34,637 nucleotides of DNA, from assembly GCA_021848025.1 (NCBI GenBank), contig JAJZND010000013.1, positions 22,174-56,810 on the forward strand. The letters run 5' to 3'. Position numbers and translations under genes: made by a program. The stretch comes from Microcaldota archaeon (GTDB lineage Archaea; Micrarchaeota; Micrarchaeia; Micrarchaeales; CABMGC01). Under the pieces are notes generated by a model, which made no database searches, was not told where the DNA came from, and saw only the letters and a list, made by a program, of their open reading frames with translations. Below, piece after piece: positions 16,816 to 30,257 of the stretch. The first letter of the stretch is position 1, and every line of letters begins with the position of its first letter.

Positions 16816-16960
16816 TTTTACACCATTAAGCCCTATGGTATTTGGTTTATAAATAGCAATGCATGCTTATGGAGGCATATTTATTGCTTTCTATTTTGCA
16901 AAAGCATAAATAAGCAGTATCGTTGGCTTCATTTATCCTAGTAAATCATTATTCTCTGAA

Positions 16961-17002
16961 AACCGAAATAAAACCGAAAAAATTCACAGCTTATTTATAA
17001 AT
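16961..17002 (+). promoter_or_regulatory. Promoter with tandem ACCGAAA element, secreted protein gene
   Basis: ACCGAA at 16962-16967 and 16973-16978, 11 bases apart (one helical turn), then TATA box TTTATAAAT at 16994-17002, then the ATG at 17032. The same arrangement recurs before the membrane-bound HTH gene at 19136-19175 with spacing equal within one base. Confidence 0.6.
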
Positions 17003-17031
17003 TGGGCGGCAATCCATCTGTTGGTGAGAAT

Positions 17032-17601
17032 ATGGCCAAAATTGGAAGAATAGGATTTGTGATGGCAGCAATGGCAGTTATGTCAGCGGCGCTGCTTTCA
17101 GCTGCTATGGCTGCCTCGCTAGGCATAAGCGGCAATCTGGGCATCAGCGTAAACGCGACGCAGCAATCGGGTTTAGGCAATTCCGCTTCCGCAGGAAGTA
17201 TCTTTAATCAGAATGCTGCTGCAAATGCCGGCTCAGGCACAGGCTTGAACGCGAGTTCAGGCATCACAGTAAATACAGCTGCCAAAGTCTCTTCAGCGGT
17301 AAATGTAGCTACAGATGCAATGGCAAACGTTATTGCAGGCGTATCAGGAGATGGCAGTGAAGTGAACGGCGGCGCAGGCGGCGCACTTGCTACAGAAGAT
17401 GCAGGCTCAGGTTCCAACATTTACTCTTCGCAGCAGGCAAACAGCTCATTTGCAGGATCTGAAAACCAAGCAGCAAATGCGAACGCAAGCGTCAATGCAG
17501 AGGCCTCACAGGGCTCTGATATCGGCAGCATACTGGCCCAGATACAAACGCTATTGGATGGGGTAATGGTAGGAATAAGCACAACATTACACTTAGGGTA
17601 A
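17032..17601 (+). CDS. Secreted Ala/Ser/Asn/Gly-rich low-complexity protein
   Basis: 189 residues from the ATG at 17032, which fits the TATA box at 16994-17002. Residues 1-28 form a signal peptide (MAKIGRIGFVMAAMAVMSAALLSAAMA) with AMA before the cleavage site. The mature part is almost only Ala, Ser, Asn, Gly, Val and Gln, with no cysteine and few charges, loosely repeating (QQSGLGNSASAGS, NQNAAANAGSG, NANASVNAEAS), and ends in an amphipathic helix-like QIQTLLDGVMVGIS. Several N-glycosylation sequons. It resembles beta-rich or amyloid-like surface proteins in composition only. A strong hairpin terminator follows. Confidence 0.75.
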   Translation: MAKIGRIGFVMAAMAVMSAALLSAAMAASLGISGNLGISVNATQQSGLGNSASAGSIFNQNAAANAGSGTGLNASSGITVNTAAKVSSAVNVATDAMANVIAGVSGDGSEVNGGAGGALATEDAGSGSNIYSSQQANSSFAGSENQAANANASVNAEASQGSDIGSILAQIQTLLDGVMVGISTTLHLG

Positions 17602-17631
17602 ACCTCCACACCTAAGAAACTAAGCCTAATT

Positions 17632-17662
17632 GGCAGGTGCTGCTGCACCTGCCCTCTTTTTT
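17632..17662 (+). terminator. Hairpin with T run after the secreted protein gene
   Basis: GGCAGGTGC (17632-17640), loop TGCT, GCACCTGCC (17645-17653): nine perfect pairs followed by CTCTTTTTT. It looks like a bacterial-type intrinsic terminator and may stop transcription from both the secreted gene and the convergent phosphohexomutase gene ending at 17680. Confidence 0.75.
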
Positions 17663-17679
17663 ATTGCTTATGCAAGCAG

Positions 17680-19056
17680 TCAGTGCGCGTTTACGGCTTC
17701 AGTAGCTCTGTTGAGCTTTTCGGTAGCAACCTTAACCAGGCTGTCGAGATCTTCCTTTGATTTTGCTTCTGCTATGAGGCGCAGGTTTGGAGATGTATTA
17801 GACGCCCTTATGAGGAACCAGCCCTTATCCAGACGGGCTTTCACTCCGTCTAGCACAGATATTTTAAAACCGGCATTGGCTAGGTCCTGCTTTAGATATT
17901 CTACAATCCGGAATTTGATACCTTCTTCTACAGGTATCTCCATGGCAAATGATTCGTAGTTTGGTAATTCTGCAACAAGCTCTGAAAGCTTCTTTCTGCG
18001 TTCCGACATTATATGCGCAATTCTTGTTGTTGCGAAGAGCGGGTCATCCGCATTCCTTGCTTCTGAAAAATACATATGGCCGGATATCTCGCCTCCCAGC
18101 ACCGCTTTTTCCTTTATCATTTTTTCTGGAATAAATGCTCTTCCCACAGGGCTTATAAACCCTTTTGCACCTTTCTCGTTTATTGCCTCCTGCACAGCAT
18201 CCGAGCAGCTTACTTCGTACACAACACCGTCGCCTTTCTTTACCCAGTTTTTTACCATAAGCGCTAATGCCATATCGCCTCTCAGAACCTTCCCCTTATC
18301 ATCTACGAAGATGCCCCTGTCACCATCAGCATCAAATGCAATTCCAAAATCCAGCCCTTTCTCCACGACAAGGTTTTTAAGTTCGGATATTGACTCTGGC
18401 TTTGGTTCCGGGGTTCTTCCTGGGAAATTCCCATCAGGGAAGTCGTTTATGCTTACGATTTCCGCTCCGGATTTTTTCAATATGTCCTTTGCCAGACCGG
18501 AATACGAACCATTGCCAGGATCTATTCCTATGCTCAATCCTTTGAGATCTCCGGCTTTAGAGACTATGAATGCAGTATAGCTCCGTATCGTCTCGCCTGC
18601 AAAATCCTTGACAGAACCTTTACCCGTGTATTTCTTTGCACCTTTTTGCGCTAGTTCCTTTACCTTCTCAAGGCCTGTGCCCATCCCCATCACATGTGCG
18701 TCTTCAGAGTAGAGCTTGAAGCCGTTCCATTCCCTGGGATTGTGGCTAGCAGTTACTATGGCTCCTCCATCAAAATTGAATTCTGTAAGGCAAAAATCTA
18801 TGACAGGCGTGGGAACCACGCCAAGATCATATACATTTGCGCCTGATTCAACAATCCCAGTTTCCATCTCTTTCTTGAGAGCTATTGTACTAACCCGTAC
18901 GTCGCCTGCCAATGCCAGTTTTTTCCCTGGCCCTATAAGATTGCCAAGGGCATTGCCTATGAGATATGCCGTTTCTTCAAAGATATCTCTTGAATATATG
19001 CCGCGTATGTCATAAGCCTTGAATATCTGATCCTTTACTTTACTTTCGGAGTCCAT
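17680..19056 (-). CDS. Phosphomannomutase/phosphoglucomutase
   Basis: Moves phosphate between C1 and C6 of hexoses, feeding nucleotide-sugar and glycan synthesis. 458 residues, normal length. Four-domain alpha-D-phosphohexomutase: catalytic serine S104 in TASHNP, metal loop DADGDRG (D242, D244, D246), sugar-binding GGEISGHM (321-328) and phosphate-binding RASNTSPNLR near the C-terminus. The GEISGH form fits PMM/PGM rather than phosphoglucosamine mutase. A TATA-like AAATATAAAAG lies on the minus strand about 25 bases upstream. It may serve the same surface glycosylation as uppP. Confidence 0.94.
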   Translation of the reverse strand: MDSESKVKDQIFKAYDIRGIYSRDIFEETAYLIGNALGNLIGPGKKLALAGDVRVSTIALKKEMETGIVESGANVYDLGVVPTPVIDFCLTEFNFDGGAIVTASHNPREWNGFKLYSEDAHVMGMGTGLEKVKELAQKGAKKYTGKGSVKDFAGETIRSYTAFIVSKAGDLKGLSIGIDPGNGSYSGLAKDILKKSGAEIVSINDFPDGNFPGRTPEPKPESISELKNLVVEKGLDFGIAFDADGDRGIFVDDKGKVLRGDMALALMVKNWVKKGDGVVYEVSCSDAVQEAINEKGAKGFISPVGRAFIPEKMIKEKAVLGGEISGHMYFSEARNADDPLFATTRIAHIMSERRKKLSELVAELPNYESFAMEIPVEEGIKFRIVEYLKQDLANAGFKISVLDGVKARLDKGWFLIRASNTSPNLRLIAEAKSKEDLDSLVKVATEKLNRATEAVNAH

Positions 19057-19135
19057 AATAGCAGTACTACATGGGCTTTTATATTTATTATGATTGCAGG
19101 TTTTATGATCTTCTTTATGCCCGGGAAACCTAAAA

Positions 19136-19175
19136 ACCGAAATAAAACCGAAATAAAATGGCAGAATTTATAAAT
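19136..19175 (+). promoter_or_regulatory. Promoter with tandem ACCGAAA element, membrane-bound HTH gene
   Basis: ACCGAA at 19136-19141 and 19147-19152, again 11 bases apart, then TATA box TTTATAAAT at 19167-19175. The 18 bases from the first repeat are the same as those before the secreted protein gene (AACCGAAATAAAACCGAAA). The distance from first repeat to TATA is 31 bases here and 32 there. The likely transcript start near 19195-19200 leaves a leader of about 80 bases. Confidence 0.6.
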
Positions 19176-19279
19176 CATTTCTGCCAACTCTTCATGTTAT
19201 ATGTTTACCAATTGGATGGCGCCCCAGGTGCAGAAGCAGGGCTTATGCGGAGCTGCCATAGCGAGTTTGGTCGATATTG

Positions 19280-20902
19280 ATGACAAAAAACGGTCAGACA
19301 AAAAAGAAGATATTAGATATGCTTAGGGAAAGGCAGATGACTCTCACAGATATATCTGAGAGATTGAATCTGGCGCCCTCAACTGTTAGCCAGCATTTGA
19401 AGGAACTTCTTGCGGTAAATGCTATACGCGAAGTGGAGACGGAATACAACAGGAAATGGAAATATTATAGGCCTGTAGACGCATTTGATCCGCTTGGTTA
19501 TGGCAATGAGAACAAACCAAGGGTCATACAGAACCGTGCGAGATATTATTTAGCCATTCTTATAGCAAGCCTCGCAATCATAGGCGGTGCCAGCTATATC
19601 ACACTTTTAGGCTCCGGCCACTATATTAGTAGTTTGGGAAACCAAAGTGCGAAATCGCATAATTATTCTGCATCGCCATCTGGATACAGCAAATTCTACG
19701 TGCAGCTTACCGATCCGCCAGTTGTGCCGCATGGCACTGACTCTTTACTGCTTAATTATTCAGGAGTAGGATTACTTGTAAAATCCATTGCCAATGGGTC
19801 TATGGGCATGGAAAGGTTCGAAGTGAATGGAGGTGTGAATTTGCTGAACCTTACTAACAGCTCTAAGACTATTGCTGTAATCAATATTTCCAGCACTGAA
19901 AAGATAATGGCAGTGGAATTATTTGTAAGGAACATAAGCATAGGCATAAACAATGGCACTTACAGTGTTATTGCCTCTTCCAAGATTATAAATGCCACAC
20001 TCAATGCAAGTGCAAACGAAAGCTACGGAGCTTTGCTGGATCTGCGCCCGCAGGTGTTGGAGCTTTATGGCGCAAACACAACGTTTGTATTCATACCGCA
20101 GCTCACGGCTGTGGCGCTAAATAAGATAAGTTACATTTCGGGTTCGCAGAATGTTTCGCAGGCGGAGGTTGGAAGTGTAAGGCCATTGCCGCATGGGGTG
20201 AATCTGAAAATAAATAATACAGTGTCTATACTTAACCTTTCGGTTTACACTTCCGGAGAAGGACTTTCAAATCTAAGCGTATTAGTGAGGAACAATGGCA
20301 ACTCTGAAGTCGATGTGAAGAGGATCACAATAACCGGGAAAATGGATGAAGAGCCTTATAAGGCTATATTGCAAAAACTCGAGAGGATCGCCAATTCAGA
20401 ACTTCCGGTAACTTCCGCTACGAATGCAACACTGTTGAATATCAGCACTGCATCTGCCGCGCATCTGAAATCAGGTACAGCAAATAGCCTCGCAGTATCT
20501 GCAAGTATCAATGCCTCAGCATCGTATAATATTACCGCCGCTTCCATTAAAAGTACAGGGGCGCATTCAGACAAGGTAGCCAATATCTCGATTTCAGTCG
20601 CATCCAATTCTACCCTCCCCAATCTGTCAGGAATACTCAATTTTTCTAGAAATTACGGGGACCAGATAAGCTTCATTGTAGAACAGAACGGCAGCCTTGA
20701 AGTACCGTATACGTACGGCCAGGTAGCTTCTGGCAAAGGCCTGAAACTTATGCCAGGACAGGAAGCAGAGCTCGCATATAATGGGATTCTCTGGGTTGAT
20801 GGCGGCCAGAAGGAGGTTTACATGCTAAACAATCAGACTTATGAGGTGCAGGTGTTTACAGCCAGCTCCCAAAGTGCGTCTGCCTCGGCCAGAGCAAAGT
20901 AG
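19280..20902 (+). CDS. Membrane-anchored HTH regulator with large outside domain
   Basis: 540 residues from the ATG at 19280 (TTG one codon earlier). Residues about 5-70 form an ArsR/MarR-like winged helix: KKKILDMLRERQMTLTDISERLNLAPSTVSQHLKELLAV, then the wing EVETEYNRKWKYYRPV. One transmembrane helix follows (about 92-112, YYLAILIASLAIIGGASYI). The remaining 430 residues are outside, Ser/Asn/Ala-rich, with many N-glycosylation sequons and no cysteine that I saw. The topology is that of ToxR/CadC-type one-component sensors. The gene shares its promoter element with the secreted protein gene, suggesting self-control. It ends 3 bases from the convergent infB stop. Confidence 0.8.
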   Translation: MTKNGQTKKKILDMLRERQMTLTDISERLNLAPSTVSQHLKELLAVNAIREVETEYNRKWKYYRPVDAFDPLGYGNENKPRVIQNRARYYLAILIASLAIIGGASYITLLGSGHYISSLGNQSAKSHNYSASPSGYSKFYVQLTDPPVVPHGTDSLLLNYSGVGLLVKSIANGSMGMERFEVNGGVNLLNLTNSSKTIAVINISSTEKIMAVELFVRNISIGINNGTYSVIASSKIINATLNASANESYGALLDLRPQVLELYGANTTFVFIPQLTAVALNKISYISGSQNVSQAEVGSVRPLPHGVNLKINNTVSILNLSVYTSGEGLSNLSVLVRNNGNSEVDVKRITITGKMDEEPYKAILQKLERIANSELPVTSATNATLLNISTASAAHLKSGTANSLAVSASINASASYNITAASIKSTGAHSDKVANISISVASNSTLPNLSGILNFSRNYGDQISFIVEQNGSLEVPYTYGQVASGKGLKLMPGQEAELAYNGILWVDGGQKEVYMLNNQTYEVQVFTASSQSASASARAK

Positions 20903-25446: not shown

Positions 25447-28400
25447 TTAACTTATATCGCCTGAAATGGTGCTTATAAGGCTTCCGAAATCTGGCTTTGA
25501 TACGCTTGGCTGGAAATTGTATGTGAGAACCACTACTGCTGTGCCTTTCCACCCTATTAATATATATAAATCCCCGGATATCGCCTCTGTGTAAGAGAAT
25601 CCGTTAGACGTTCCAGTAGAATAGGAATATCCTTTTTGTGATGGGTAGTATAGCTTTGAGCCGTTAACAAACAACGAATAGACGGCCAGAGGCTGGGCGG
25701 TATTTATTATACCCTCATTGCCTGATGCGCTTGCAGTTTGATTCCGGAATGTGACAGACCACCCTGAATTCAGAGTTGCGTTGATCTCCTGGTTAAATTC
25801 TTTTTCAGCTGCTTTGACTTCCGAAGTAATAGCTGTTGAATTTTCATATGATACGTTGTAATATGTCTGGGTTCCAAAAATGGCATTTATTTGGCTCTCG
25901 GAGAGATAGTTTAGTGGAGCATTCCCGCTTGAAGTGCTGCTGCTCGAAGTACTGACGCTTGATGTAGTGCTGGTAGAGGTACTTATCGCGCAAGAGCCTG
26001 AGCCCGTCATCCAGCTGCATTGGTAATTTGAGGAGCAGACGTTGTTGCCTGCATCCTTGTTCAGGTTTGAGTTAGAGCCCGATCCTTGCGCGCAGTATAT
26101 TCCATAAAGTGAGTTGTTGAGCAGCCGGTTGTTTCCTACTGTTGTTATTGAAGAATTGACAAGGTAAAGGCCGGTTACGCTTCCCTGTTCGGAATTGCCT
26201 TCTACTGTGAAGCCAGTATCTCCTGCAAGCTCCATGCTGACATTTGAATTGGCTATGAAGTTGTCTTTTATGGTTGCATAGTAGCCATTGCCATAGTATA
26301 TGCCATAAGATGAATTGCTTATCGAATCATTATATATCAGGGAGTGCTTCGACCCGCTTAGGAGTATTCCGTACTGTGCGCCTGCAATCGTATCGTTCAG
26401 CAGGGTAACCGAGCCTGTTGTAGTGCCTTTTACCGCATAATCGAAACCTATTATCTTGCAGTTTGCAACAGTCACATTAGTCACGTTGTTTATATCTACG
26501 AATGTTCCGCCGCTTGTTGAGAGCACAGTATGCCCCCCGCAGTTTATCTCTGAGCCTGAGCCCGAGGTAACGGCAGCATTTGTCACATCTATGCAGGTGG
26601 ACCCGTAAGTATAGATCACGTCTTCAGTATATCTCACGTAGCTTGGGCTTGAGAGGTCATAGCATGCCGTCTGTGCCTTCTCTATTGCATTTACTTCTAC
26701 AAGCCAGCTGCAGTTATGTTTTGTTGCCCCGCTATTTACCCCCAAGTCATCAGCATATATGCCGGAACTGGAAGGAGAGCAGAAATAATCAATATTGTTT
26801 GAGTAAGCAGTATTGTTTGATATCAGGTTTGAACGTGAATTTATTATATTGAAGCCATTTCCGCCATTCAGGCCAGAAGTATTGTTTACAATTATATTAT
26901 AGCTGGAGTTGGAGAGCACAAATCCGGGGGTTGTGCCCAGAAGCCCGTTATATGAGCCGTCCTGCGTTATTATAGAATCATTTACATTGTCTAGCACAAA
27001 ACCAGATGAGCTTGCAAGGTTGGATACTGTACCCACTACAACTACTCCAGTATCGTTCTGCAGATATATGGAATATTCGGATGAGGTTACCGTGTTGTTT
27101 CTCAGAATTAAGTATGGTGAATTGAGGGCTTTTATTCCGTATGACAGATCTAGCATATTGCATCCTGAAATTGCAACGCCTGGCATGTTATCTACGCTTA
27201 CGCCTGTGCCTGCTTCGTTTCCTTTTATTAGATGGCCATCACACGCAAGATTCACGTCCTTGGCCTTTATATCCAGGCATGAGCCTGAACCGCTATATAC
27301 CATATTGCTAGTAACTTCGTAATTTCCTGACAGGCTTATGACCCCGCATGAACTTATATGCTGCGTAGGCAGCGGAGGAAGCTGGTATGAGACGCACTCG
27401 CTGGCCCAGTTGCAGTCAGTAGACTGGCATGTGCTTGACTGCAGTATGTTTAGGCTTGAGTTGTACGAGTCTGCTGAGCAGTAGAAGTCGGTATTGGAAT
27501 TGCCTTTAAGCGTGGCATTGGAGAAGGTATCGCCTGTTCCGTTCTGGAAGTATATGCCGTAAGGATTTTCAGAGGAGGATAGCCTGTCAACCGAGATGCC
27601 CGAAACATTGCCCAGGTACAGGCCGGCCTCTCCGTCATTTGAAAAGGAAGTGTTTATAAGCAAACCTTTTAAGCTGTTCAGCATGTAAATGCCGAAGCCG
27701 CTTGAATATGCAGATGTGTTTCTTATGCTCGAGTTAAACACGCCATAGAGATATGCGCCATAGGTGTCGTTCGAAAGCCTGCAGTTGTCTACCTGCAGGT
27801 TATAAACGCCTGAAGCAGCAATGCCATAGTGTGCACCGCTTATTCCCCTGCCCATGCAGTTTAGATTCACATCAGATGCATTCACTTCTATGCATGCGGC
27901 ATTCGCATAAGCAGGTTCTGATGTGTTTACATAGTCTGGAAGGTAGAGGTTCGATGAGAGTGCGTAGTTTCCTGGAGCATCTATAATGCCGCAGCTGTTT
28001 ATTGTATTATGCAAGGTCAGGTTGGCCAGGTTTATAGGCACATTGCGTATTGAACAGAATGTAGACTGGCAGAACGCATTTGTTTCGCATGAAACCCCTG
28101 AGAATGTATTTTGCTTGCGGTATCCTGCATTTGCAACGCAGAGCAGATCCGAGATCGGGTTGCTCTTGTACGAACCGCCTACGAAGGTATTACCGGTTGA
28201 GTTTATTACCATTCCGTAGTAGGCGTTTCCGCTTGCTGTATTATTCTGAAGCCTGTTGCCAGTGCCGCCCACCAGTGTTATGCCTCCATTGTTGCTTGAG
28301 GTCCCAACTGCCGAGTCATTTAAGAAAAGTCCATTCAATGAATTGAGGATATAAAGGCCAGAGATTGTAGCATTGTAGAGTGATACGTTTGATACATGTG

Positions 28401-29049
28401 CATTTTTCACATTAGATAGGTATACATTATAAGAGAAGCGGTAGATGCCAAGGCCGTCTATGCTGACATTGCTCTGGTTTTTTACAGAGACGCCATATGA
28501 ATATGGCGCCTGAAGCTTGAATGGGCCGTTGCCATGTATCAGATGCCCCCTTCCTTCCAGTGCCACATTGCTGCTCTCTATGCTTATGCACGAACCGTCC
28601 TGTATGTTCGTGCTTATATCCTGGGTCAGATAATACGTGCCTGGCGAGTTTATTGCTTCGCATGAACTTATTGCATAGCTTTTCGCATTCGGAATCGTAG
28701 TAGTGTGTGGCTGGTTAATGTAGGGGTTGTTGATCCAGACATATGCGAAGATAGCAAGTATTATCGCTACGGCAGCAATAGCTATTAGAATCGTGGGCAC
28801 TTTGGCTTTATGAGGTGACGGCTGGGGCTTTTGAGGTTGCTCTGGCTGGGGAGATTCGGATGGGGGTTCCGGTGCCGGCTGCGTGTATGCTGTTTGCTGC
28901 GAACTTGCAGGTTGCCCTTCATTTTGATTTTCAGTAACCTCAACTACAGTATCTGAAGATTGCTGCGTCTGAAGAATCCAGTGCTTCCGATAAATATCTG
29001 CGTGCATTATATCAATTCTTGGTTCACTGGTTTTTATATCCTTTTCCAT
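25447..29049 (-). CDS. Giant membrane-anchored parallel-beta-helix surface protein
   Basis: Up to 1200 residues; a second ATG at 29007 is better placed for a TATA box (GATATAAAAACC near 29038 on the minus strand). Inside part of about 85 residues, rich in Pro, Gln and Ser, then one helix (VPTILIAIAAVAIILAIFAYVWI). Outside are four modules of about 215-230 residues beginning near residues 126, 351, 565 and 795, each opening with SCG.I..PG.Y-like text, continuing with NosD/PbH1 beta-helix coils rich in Asn, Ser, Gly and Tyr, and closing with paired cysteines and often a Trp. A Ser/Thr linker near 1040 precedes a separate C-terminal domain of about 150 residues (NYLSESQINAIFG...). Dozens of sequons. 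Likely glycan-binding or adhesive; enzymatic activity is not evident. Confidence 0.88.
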   Translation of the reverse strand: MEKDIKTSEPRIDIMHADIYRKHWILQTQQSSDTVVEVTENQNEGQPASSQQTAYTQPAPEPPSESPQPEQPQKPQPSPHKAKVPTILIAIAAVAIILAIFAYVWINNPYINQPHTTTIPNAKSYAISSCEAINSPGTYYLTQDISTNIQDGSCISIESSNVALEGRGHLIHGNGPFKLQAPYSYGVSVKNQSNVSIDGLGIYRFSYNVYLSNVKNAHVSNVSLYNATISGLYILNSLNGLFLNDSAVGTSSNNGGITLVGGTGNRLQNNTASGNAYYGMVINSTGNTFVGGSYKSNPISDLLCVANAGYRKQNTFSGVSCETNAFCQSTFCSIRNVPINLANLTLHNTINSCGIIDAPGNYALSSNLYLPDYVNTSEPAYANAACIEVNASDVNLNCMGRGISGAHYGIAASGVYNLQVDNCRLSNDTYGAYLYGVFNSSIRNTSAYSSGFGIYMLNSLKGLLINTSFSNDGEAGLYLGNVSGISVDRLSSSENPYGIYFQNGTGDTFSNATLKGNSNTDFYCSADSYNSSLNILQSSTCQSTDCNWASECVSYQLPPLPTQHISSCGVISLSGNYEVTSNMVYSGSGSCLDIKAKDVNLACDGHLIKGNEAGTGVSVDNMPGVAISGCNMLDLSYGIKALNSPYLILRNNTVTSSEYSIYLQNDTGVVVVGTVSNLASSSGFVLDNVNDSIITQDGSYNGLLGTTPGFVLSNSSYNIIVNNTSGLNGGNGFNIINSRSNLISNNTAYSNNIDYFCSPSSSGIYADDLGVNSGATKHNCSWLVEVNAIEKAQTACYDLSSPSYVRYTEDVIYTYGSTCIDVTNAAVTSGSGSEINCGGHTVLSTSGGTFVDINNVTNVTVANCKIIGFDYAVKGTTTGSVTLLNDTIAGAQYGILLSGSKHSLIYNDSISNSSYGIYYGNGYYATIKDNFIANSNVSMELAGDTGFTVEGNSEQGSVTGLYLVNSSITTVGNNRLLNNSLYGIYCAQGSGSNSNLNKDAGNNVCSSNYQCSWMTGSGSCAISTSTSTTSSVSTSSSSTSSGNAPLNYLSESQINAIFGTQTYYNVSYENSTAITSEVKAAEKEFNQEINATLNSGWSVTFRNQTASASGNEGIINTAQPLAVYSLFVNGSKLYYPSQKGYSYSTGTSNGFSYTEAISGDLYILIGWKGTAVVVLTYNFQPSVSKPDFGSLISTISGDIS

Positions 29050-29711: not shown

Positions 29712-30257
29712 ATGGCAGCAATACCAGAATTGAAGAGTATCATAGCGGAGATACGCATCTCAAGGCAGAGGCACGGCATAAAGTCTTCTGCTCTCGCTAG
29801 AGCAAGCGGGATAAGCCCTTCTGCGATGTCTAAGCTTGAAAAAGGCGCTCTGAAGCCCAGCTACGAGCTTGTTTACAAGGTGTTGGATGCTCTCGACGAT
29901 CTTATAGCAGAGCAGGGTGCTTCTGCTACAATAAGTGCAAAGATGACCAGAAGCGTGATAAGCGTATCCATAATTGATACAATATCAAGGGCGCAGGAGA
30001 TAATGAAGAAGAATGATATATCCCAGCTTCCAGTAGTAGACAATGATGGAAGGATATTCGGACTTGTCACAGAAAAGAGCATCTTAGACAATCCAGAAGA
30101 GGTAACTTGCGGCAAAGCTTTGGATTTTTCTTATGCTGTTCTAGGGTCAGACGCAAACCTTGAAAAGGCGCGCCAGATTATCAGGAACACGCAGGCAATA
30201 TTGGTTGTAAAAGAAGGCAAGCTCATTGGCATTCTCACCAAGGCCGATTTTCTCTAG
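29712..30257 (+). CDS. HTH-CBS transcriptional regulator
   Basis: 181 residues. An XRE-type helix-turn-helix at about 8-62 (SRQRHGIKSSALARASGISPSAMSKLEKGALKPSYELVYKVLDAL) is followed by two CBS motifs (about 78-130 and 132-181; DTISRAQEIMKKNDISQLPVVDNDGRIFGLVTEKSI and NTQAILVVKEGKLIGILTKADF). CBS pairs usually sense adenine nucleotides or SAM. This architecture is common in archaea and mostly uncharacterised. A/T-rich promoter, short leader. Targets unknown; the divergent neighbour is a candidate. Confidence 0.92.
   Translation: MAAIPELKSIIAEIRISRQRHGIKSSALARASGISPSAMSKLEKGALKPSYELVYKVLDALDDLIAEQGASATISAKMTRSVISVSIIDTISRAQEIMKKNDISQLPVVDNDGRIFGLVTEKSILDNPEEVTCGKALDFSYAVLGSDANLEKARQIIRNTQAILVVKEGKLIGILTKADFL

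Follow-up and report, generated by a model that had tools for sequence, protein, structure and literature searches.

Transmembrane transcription regulators (TTRs), both of the ToxR/CadC type and in archaea, carry a DNA-binding domain and a transmembrane (TM) segment in one protein, most commonly in a single-pass form (PMC10269533). The membrane-bound one-component archaellum activators ArnR and ArnR1 of Sulfolobus acidocaldarius have an N-terminal helix-turn-helix (HTH) domain and are anchored in the membrane; their sites are paired and lie upstream of the BRE/TATA, their targets are surface structures, and the ArnR boxes are inverted repeats of the form TCGAC-N5-GTCGA (PMC6396743). MsvR of the methanogens is a redox-sensitive regulator with a V4R domain; it binds the inverted repeat TTCGN7-9CGAA, and CGAA half-sites occur in the regulators' own promoters across the family (PMC3729527). 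The text of the TTR survey mentions neither Micrarchaeota nor ArsR (PMC10269533), and no described regulator-site pair for Micrarchaeota was found in the literature searched.

The DNA analyzed here (the window) is a stretch of 34,637 nucleotides from a Microcaldota archaeon. It encodes an HTH protein with a predicted DNA-binding domain and at least one TM segment, as in the TTRs, and this protein is predicted to be a transmembrane one-component regulator of a known kind, here with direct-repeat sites. In comparison with the TTRs, the outside domain, the type of site and the putative order-wide self-regulation are new. The protein shares with ArnR and ArnR1 the N-terminal HTH domain, the membrane anchor, the paired sites upstream of the BRE/TATA and the candidate surface targets, a likeness of features. 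However, the half-sites of the window element are directly repeated with a period of 11 bp, and the large outside domain is DUF4382-like, whereas ArnR has a sensing domain and a HAMP-like part. MsvR is the best NCBIfam match of the HTH domain (9e-9, 35.4 bits against a cutoff of 220, covering the HTH part only), and its CGAA half-site is common to the window element, ACCGAA. In contrast to MsvR, the HTH protein has no V4R match in Pfam, and its gene is preceded by the ACCGAA direct repeat rather than by TTCGN7-9CGAA, which was seen only before some paralogues with an SKH motif. Compared with DUF4382 proteins, the outside part is here fused to an HTH domain through the membrane, its match to DUF4382 being sub-threshold. 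The comparisons below make it probable, in our judgement, that the HTH protein uses the tandem element as its operator and through it controls both its own gene and that of a secreted protein.

Genes around the tandem element

The HTH protein (540 aa, positions 19280-20902, plus strand) comprises a winged HTH domain (aa 1-65), a TM segment at about aa 90-110 and an outside part (aa 111-540). The winged HTH domain matches HTH_5 of Pfam (1.1e-10, 41.7 bits, over the cutoff of 22), and structures of the ArsR type, PH1932 among them, match its profile. Hydropathy analysis showed a single hydrophobic segment with a peak of 2.13 at aa 91-110, and the aligned relatives also show a hydrophobic stretch. 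All 27 N-X-S/T sequons are located in the 430-residue outside part, which is probably glycosylated. Residues 138-255 of this part contain a TDPP motif and match DUF4382 (PF14321) at 5e-4, with 20.7 bits against a gathering score of 25.

The second gene preceded by the element (17032-17601, plus strand) encodes a secreted or membrane-anchored protein of 189 aa that is rich in Ala, Ser, Gly and Asn and has a hydrophobic N-terminus (signal or TM). This protein has no Pfam or NCBIfam family match, and no homologue was detected in the 78 other genomes of the family. Its transcript is predicted to have a short leader. Both gene calls agree with an earlier reading made from the sequence alone, in which the product of 17032 was of a secreted type and that of 19280 combined an HTH domain with a membrane anchor. 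The same reading had placed a phosphohexomutase gene in the opposite direction between them, and an archaeal GlmM-like phosphohexomutase is indeed encoded at 17680-19056 on the minus strand (PGM_PMM domains; TIGR03990 at 3e-109, under its cutoff), divergent from the HTH gene. As far as tested, this gene is outside the circuit.

The start codon of the HTH gene is ~105 bp past its TATA box, whereas the distance is about 40-60 bp in most orthologues; the mRNA would therefore have a leader of ~80 nt. An open reading frame of 41 codons (19201-19326, plus strand, by translation) lies in this leader and runs across the HTH start in a different reading frame. It begins approximately where transcription should begin, and any role for it would be conjectural. 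A leader of such length is missing in most orthologues. Elsewhere in the window, a large surface protein of 1200 aa with NosD/beta-helix features and a hydrophobic segment after its N-terminal part is encoded at 25447-29049 (minus strand), and CBS domains fused to HTH_3 are encoded at 29712-30257 (plus strand).

Two copies of the tandem element

Direct reading of the plus strand showed 21 identical bases, AAAACCGAAATAAAACCGAAA, at 16959-16979 (copy 1) and 19133-19153 (copy 2), within which AACCGAAATAAAACCGAAA occupies 16961-16979 and 19135-19153. Each copy contains two ACCGAA half-sites in direct repeat with an 11-bp period, at 16962-16967 and 16973-16978 in copy 1 and at 19136-19141 and 19147-19152 in copy 2, the latter being a conserved putative autoregulatory site. 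An identical TATA box, TTTATAAAT, follows on the same strand at 16994-17002 before the secreted-protein gene and at 19167-19175 before the HTH gene. The distance to its first base is 32 and 31 bases, respectively, when counted from the first ACCGAA, and 20 and 19 nt when counted from where the second CCGAA begins. The spacings given in the sequence-only reading, 11 bases between the ACCGAA copies and 31-32 bases from the first copy to the TATA box, are thus confirmed.

A pattern search of the window for exact ACCGAAN5ACCGAA matches returned these two sites only. Similarly, the two window sites are the only matches to AACCGAANNNAAACCGAA at 0 or 1 mismatch in the organism's own genome (1,047,449 bases in 31 contigs, 88% complete), a small, symbiont-type Micrarchaeota genome assembled from metagenomic data, and the next best site has 2 mismatches. 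The expected number of perfect matches to this 18-mer is 0.0008 per genome under a first-order Markov model with the composition of the window. Sites with 2-3 mismatches total 28 in the own genome, compared with 52 for the reversed control, and thus show no excess; those inspected are within genes or wrongly spaced. The claim that the element stands before the TATA boxes of two genes only therefore holds for both the window and the genome.

Conservation of the element across the order

The element was compared in 79 genomes of the family, 164 of the order and 137 outside the order, most of which are draft and incomplete, so that absences are provisional. Relatives of the HTH protein are found in 77 of the 79 family genomes, many of them outside-domain paralogues without the HTH domain. 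Reading of the upstream regions showed that most HTH-bearing relatives are preceded by this tandem, likewise with a period of 11 bp, and 60 of 79 family HTH genes have a tandem of the general kind scoring above 99% of the null. An unbiased pattern search of the order returned 96 matches with at most one mismatch, compared with 22 for the reversed pattern, and 32 perfect matches, compared with none for the reversed control. Outside the order, the 2 perfect matches in 137 genomes are at the level of background (5 in the control). A search for the HTH protein in contigs of named genomes found no relatives. The neighbouring IF2 gene has its best relatives in Micrarchaeota metagenome-assembled genomes, and the four contigs that match best by IF2 contain no homologue of the HTH or the outside domain. 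The sole congener examined (G001, 80% complete) is without the HTH gene, the element and the secreted-protein gene.

The surrounding DNA could be examined for 95 distinct sites with at most one mismatch. HTH genes lie just downstream of 72 of these sites, 62 of them with a recognized outside domain, and 7 more precede outside-domain genes without the HTH. The remaining 16 sites precede something else. These include the secreted-protein gene of the window, two further secreted proteins in one genome (L188 and L189 in G074), and two operons, from two genera of the sister family, in which a secreted protein is encoded together with a MacB-type ABC ATPase (L224, which also has a permease, and L259, which adjoins a divergently oriented HTH gene). 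Also among the 16 are L243, an S-layer-like gene whose site is weaker, and L234, a disrupted-looking HTH gene; the sites that lie within genes look like chance occurrences. Two further arrangements were observed. At L036 and L040, a tandem reversed in orientation (TTTCGGTCATATTTCGGT) precedes HTH genes. At L009 and L010, an HTH-less DUF4382-like gene has a single half-site 18 nt before the TATA, CCGAA in G001 and CCTAA in the own genome, which is possibly a half-operator.

A role as a general Micrarchaeota promoter element would account for the adjacency to TATA boxes, but is refuted by the distribution: a genome has roughly one site at most, and almost all sites lie before members of a single gene family. 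Two of the three outcomes that the sequence-only reading had named as refuting it were thus not observed: the searches in the genome and across the order did not show the element to be frequent upstream of unrelated genes, and HTH orthologues throughout the order are preceded by it. The two window copies, which are 2.2 kb apart and identical over 21 bases, could also have arisen by local duplication of a promoter and have no regulatory meaning. However, the flanks and the stretch between the element and the TATA box differ between the copies, and copy 1 retains the functional spacing. The HTH copy is kept across the order, so at least this copy should be functional, and a meaningless duplication is very unlikely.

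Covariation of the recognition helix and the site

That a site is conserved upstream of a gene does not tell which protein binds it. An alternative to binding by the HTH protein is that another, soluble factor binds the element and has the HTH gene family as a conserved target; the outside-domain genes without the HTH, the secreted-protein genes and the ABC operons bear the element as well. Dimeric proteins of the ArsR type do not usually bind direct repeats, which counts against binding by the HTH protein.

However, the site sequence shifts with the recognition helix of the HTH protein encoded downstream. Recognition helices with a Lys before the invariant His (STVSKH) are accompanied by (A/G)CGAA half-sites in 11 of 11 cases, whereas those without this Lys are accompanied by CCGAA or CCTAA half-sites in 72 of 75. 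In a tree from which the helix columns were left out, the change of the Lys and the change of the site coincide at two places, the SKH clade and L169. L168 and L171 are exceptions, having a Gln yet retaining the (A/G)CGAA site. A formal test of independence between helix and site has only 3 independent pairs, too few for significance, and the signal is mostly one deep split between clades, so the covariation is supportive evidence rather than proof. Shifts of the same kind are seen between paralogues within one genome, which differ in both operators and helices (for example in G043 and G073). The second HTH-TM paralogue of the own genome (L013, G000:C7:56528) has a tandem of the CCTAA type upstream, GCCTAACCAAAACCTTACC, whose spacing to the TATA box is the same, and this tandem is a predicted separate operator. 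Three SKH paralogues (L160, L164 and L166) have an inverted TTCG...CGAA without direct repeats, like the MsvR boxes.

The covariation, together with the half-site shared with MsvR, a relative of the HTH domain, makes a separate soluble binder unlikely. The conservation before HTH orthologues, the site changes that track the helix and the MsvR half-site point to direct autoregulation as the best reading, and regulation of its own gene by the HTH protein is strongly supported by these comparisons.

Position of the element relative to the core promoter

A TATA-like box begins 19-22 nt downstream of the first base of the second CCGAA in 63 of the 79 promoters that belong to HTH or outside-domain genes, a range that includes the window pair. 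Thus, the tandem lies directly upstream of the BRE/TATA and not over it. ArnR binds fragments upstream of the core promoter, for example -38 to -79 and -41 to -82 (PMC6396743). In comparison, MsvR represses its own promoter, and its boxes overlap the BRE/TATA or the start site (PMC3729527). The placement of the element is like that of ArnR and unlike that of MsvR, and activation is therefore the better guess; we infer that activation is considerably more probable than repression.

The HTH protein might instead bind the element and repress its genes until released by an outside signal, in the manner of MsvR. ArsR-type proteins are mostly repressors, and MsvR itself is a repressor of this kind. 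However, the core promoter is here left free, and the second half-site, 19-22 nt before the TATA, is placed as are the regions bound by the activator ArnR (-38 to -82). Repression by the HTH protein is thus somewhat unlikely.

Discussion

Taken with activation as the favored sign, the proposed circuit is as follows. The cytoplasmic ArsR-type winged helix would bind both ACCGAA half-sites, which are directly repeated on the same face of the DNA, immediately upstream of the BRE/TATA. The bound HTH protein would regulate, and more likely activate, its own promoter, and in the Microcaldota archaeon of the window it would also regulate the promoter of the secreted low-complexity surface protein. 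The likely input would be the outside domain, which is probably glycosylated. The DNA sites, their rarity, the constant distance to the TATA box and the conservation before HTH genes throughout the order were observed, whereas direct binding, activation and sensing by the HTH protein are all inferred here.

A circuit of this form, with self-control and control of the secreted protein, had been suggested from the window sequence, and its two arms now differ in strength. Self-control is reinforced by the conservation, the helix tracking and the MsvR half-site, whereas control of the secreted-protein gene is plausible from the perfect site and spacing in one genome. The perfect site, the correct spacing and the very low chance expectation make this gene a credible target, one that is species-specific so far as the 78 other family genomes show. 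In other genomes, the element precedes different secreted or envelope genes, suggesting that a conserved receptor has surface targets that change rapidly.

Micrarchaeota are reduced archaea, and their cultured members rely on other archaea. More speculatively, and with doubt about the picture as a whole, the HTH proteins may be order-wide Micrarchaeal surface receptors that read the outside, possibly host contact, via DUF4382-like domains and drive small, insulated envelope regulons. Paralogues in the same cell would then have separate, co-evolved operators, each amplifying its own expression and switching on fast-changing, species-specific surface proteins. The pairs of paralogues and operators form a natural set for the rules of HTH recognition. 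The predicted order-wide operator, with its membrane-spanning regulator and a surface-protein target, would give a testable entry into surface sensing and remodelling.
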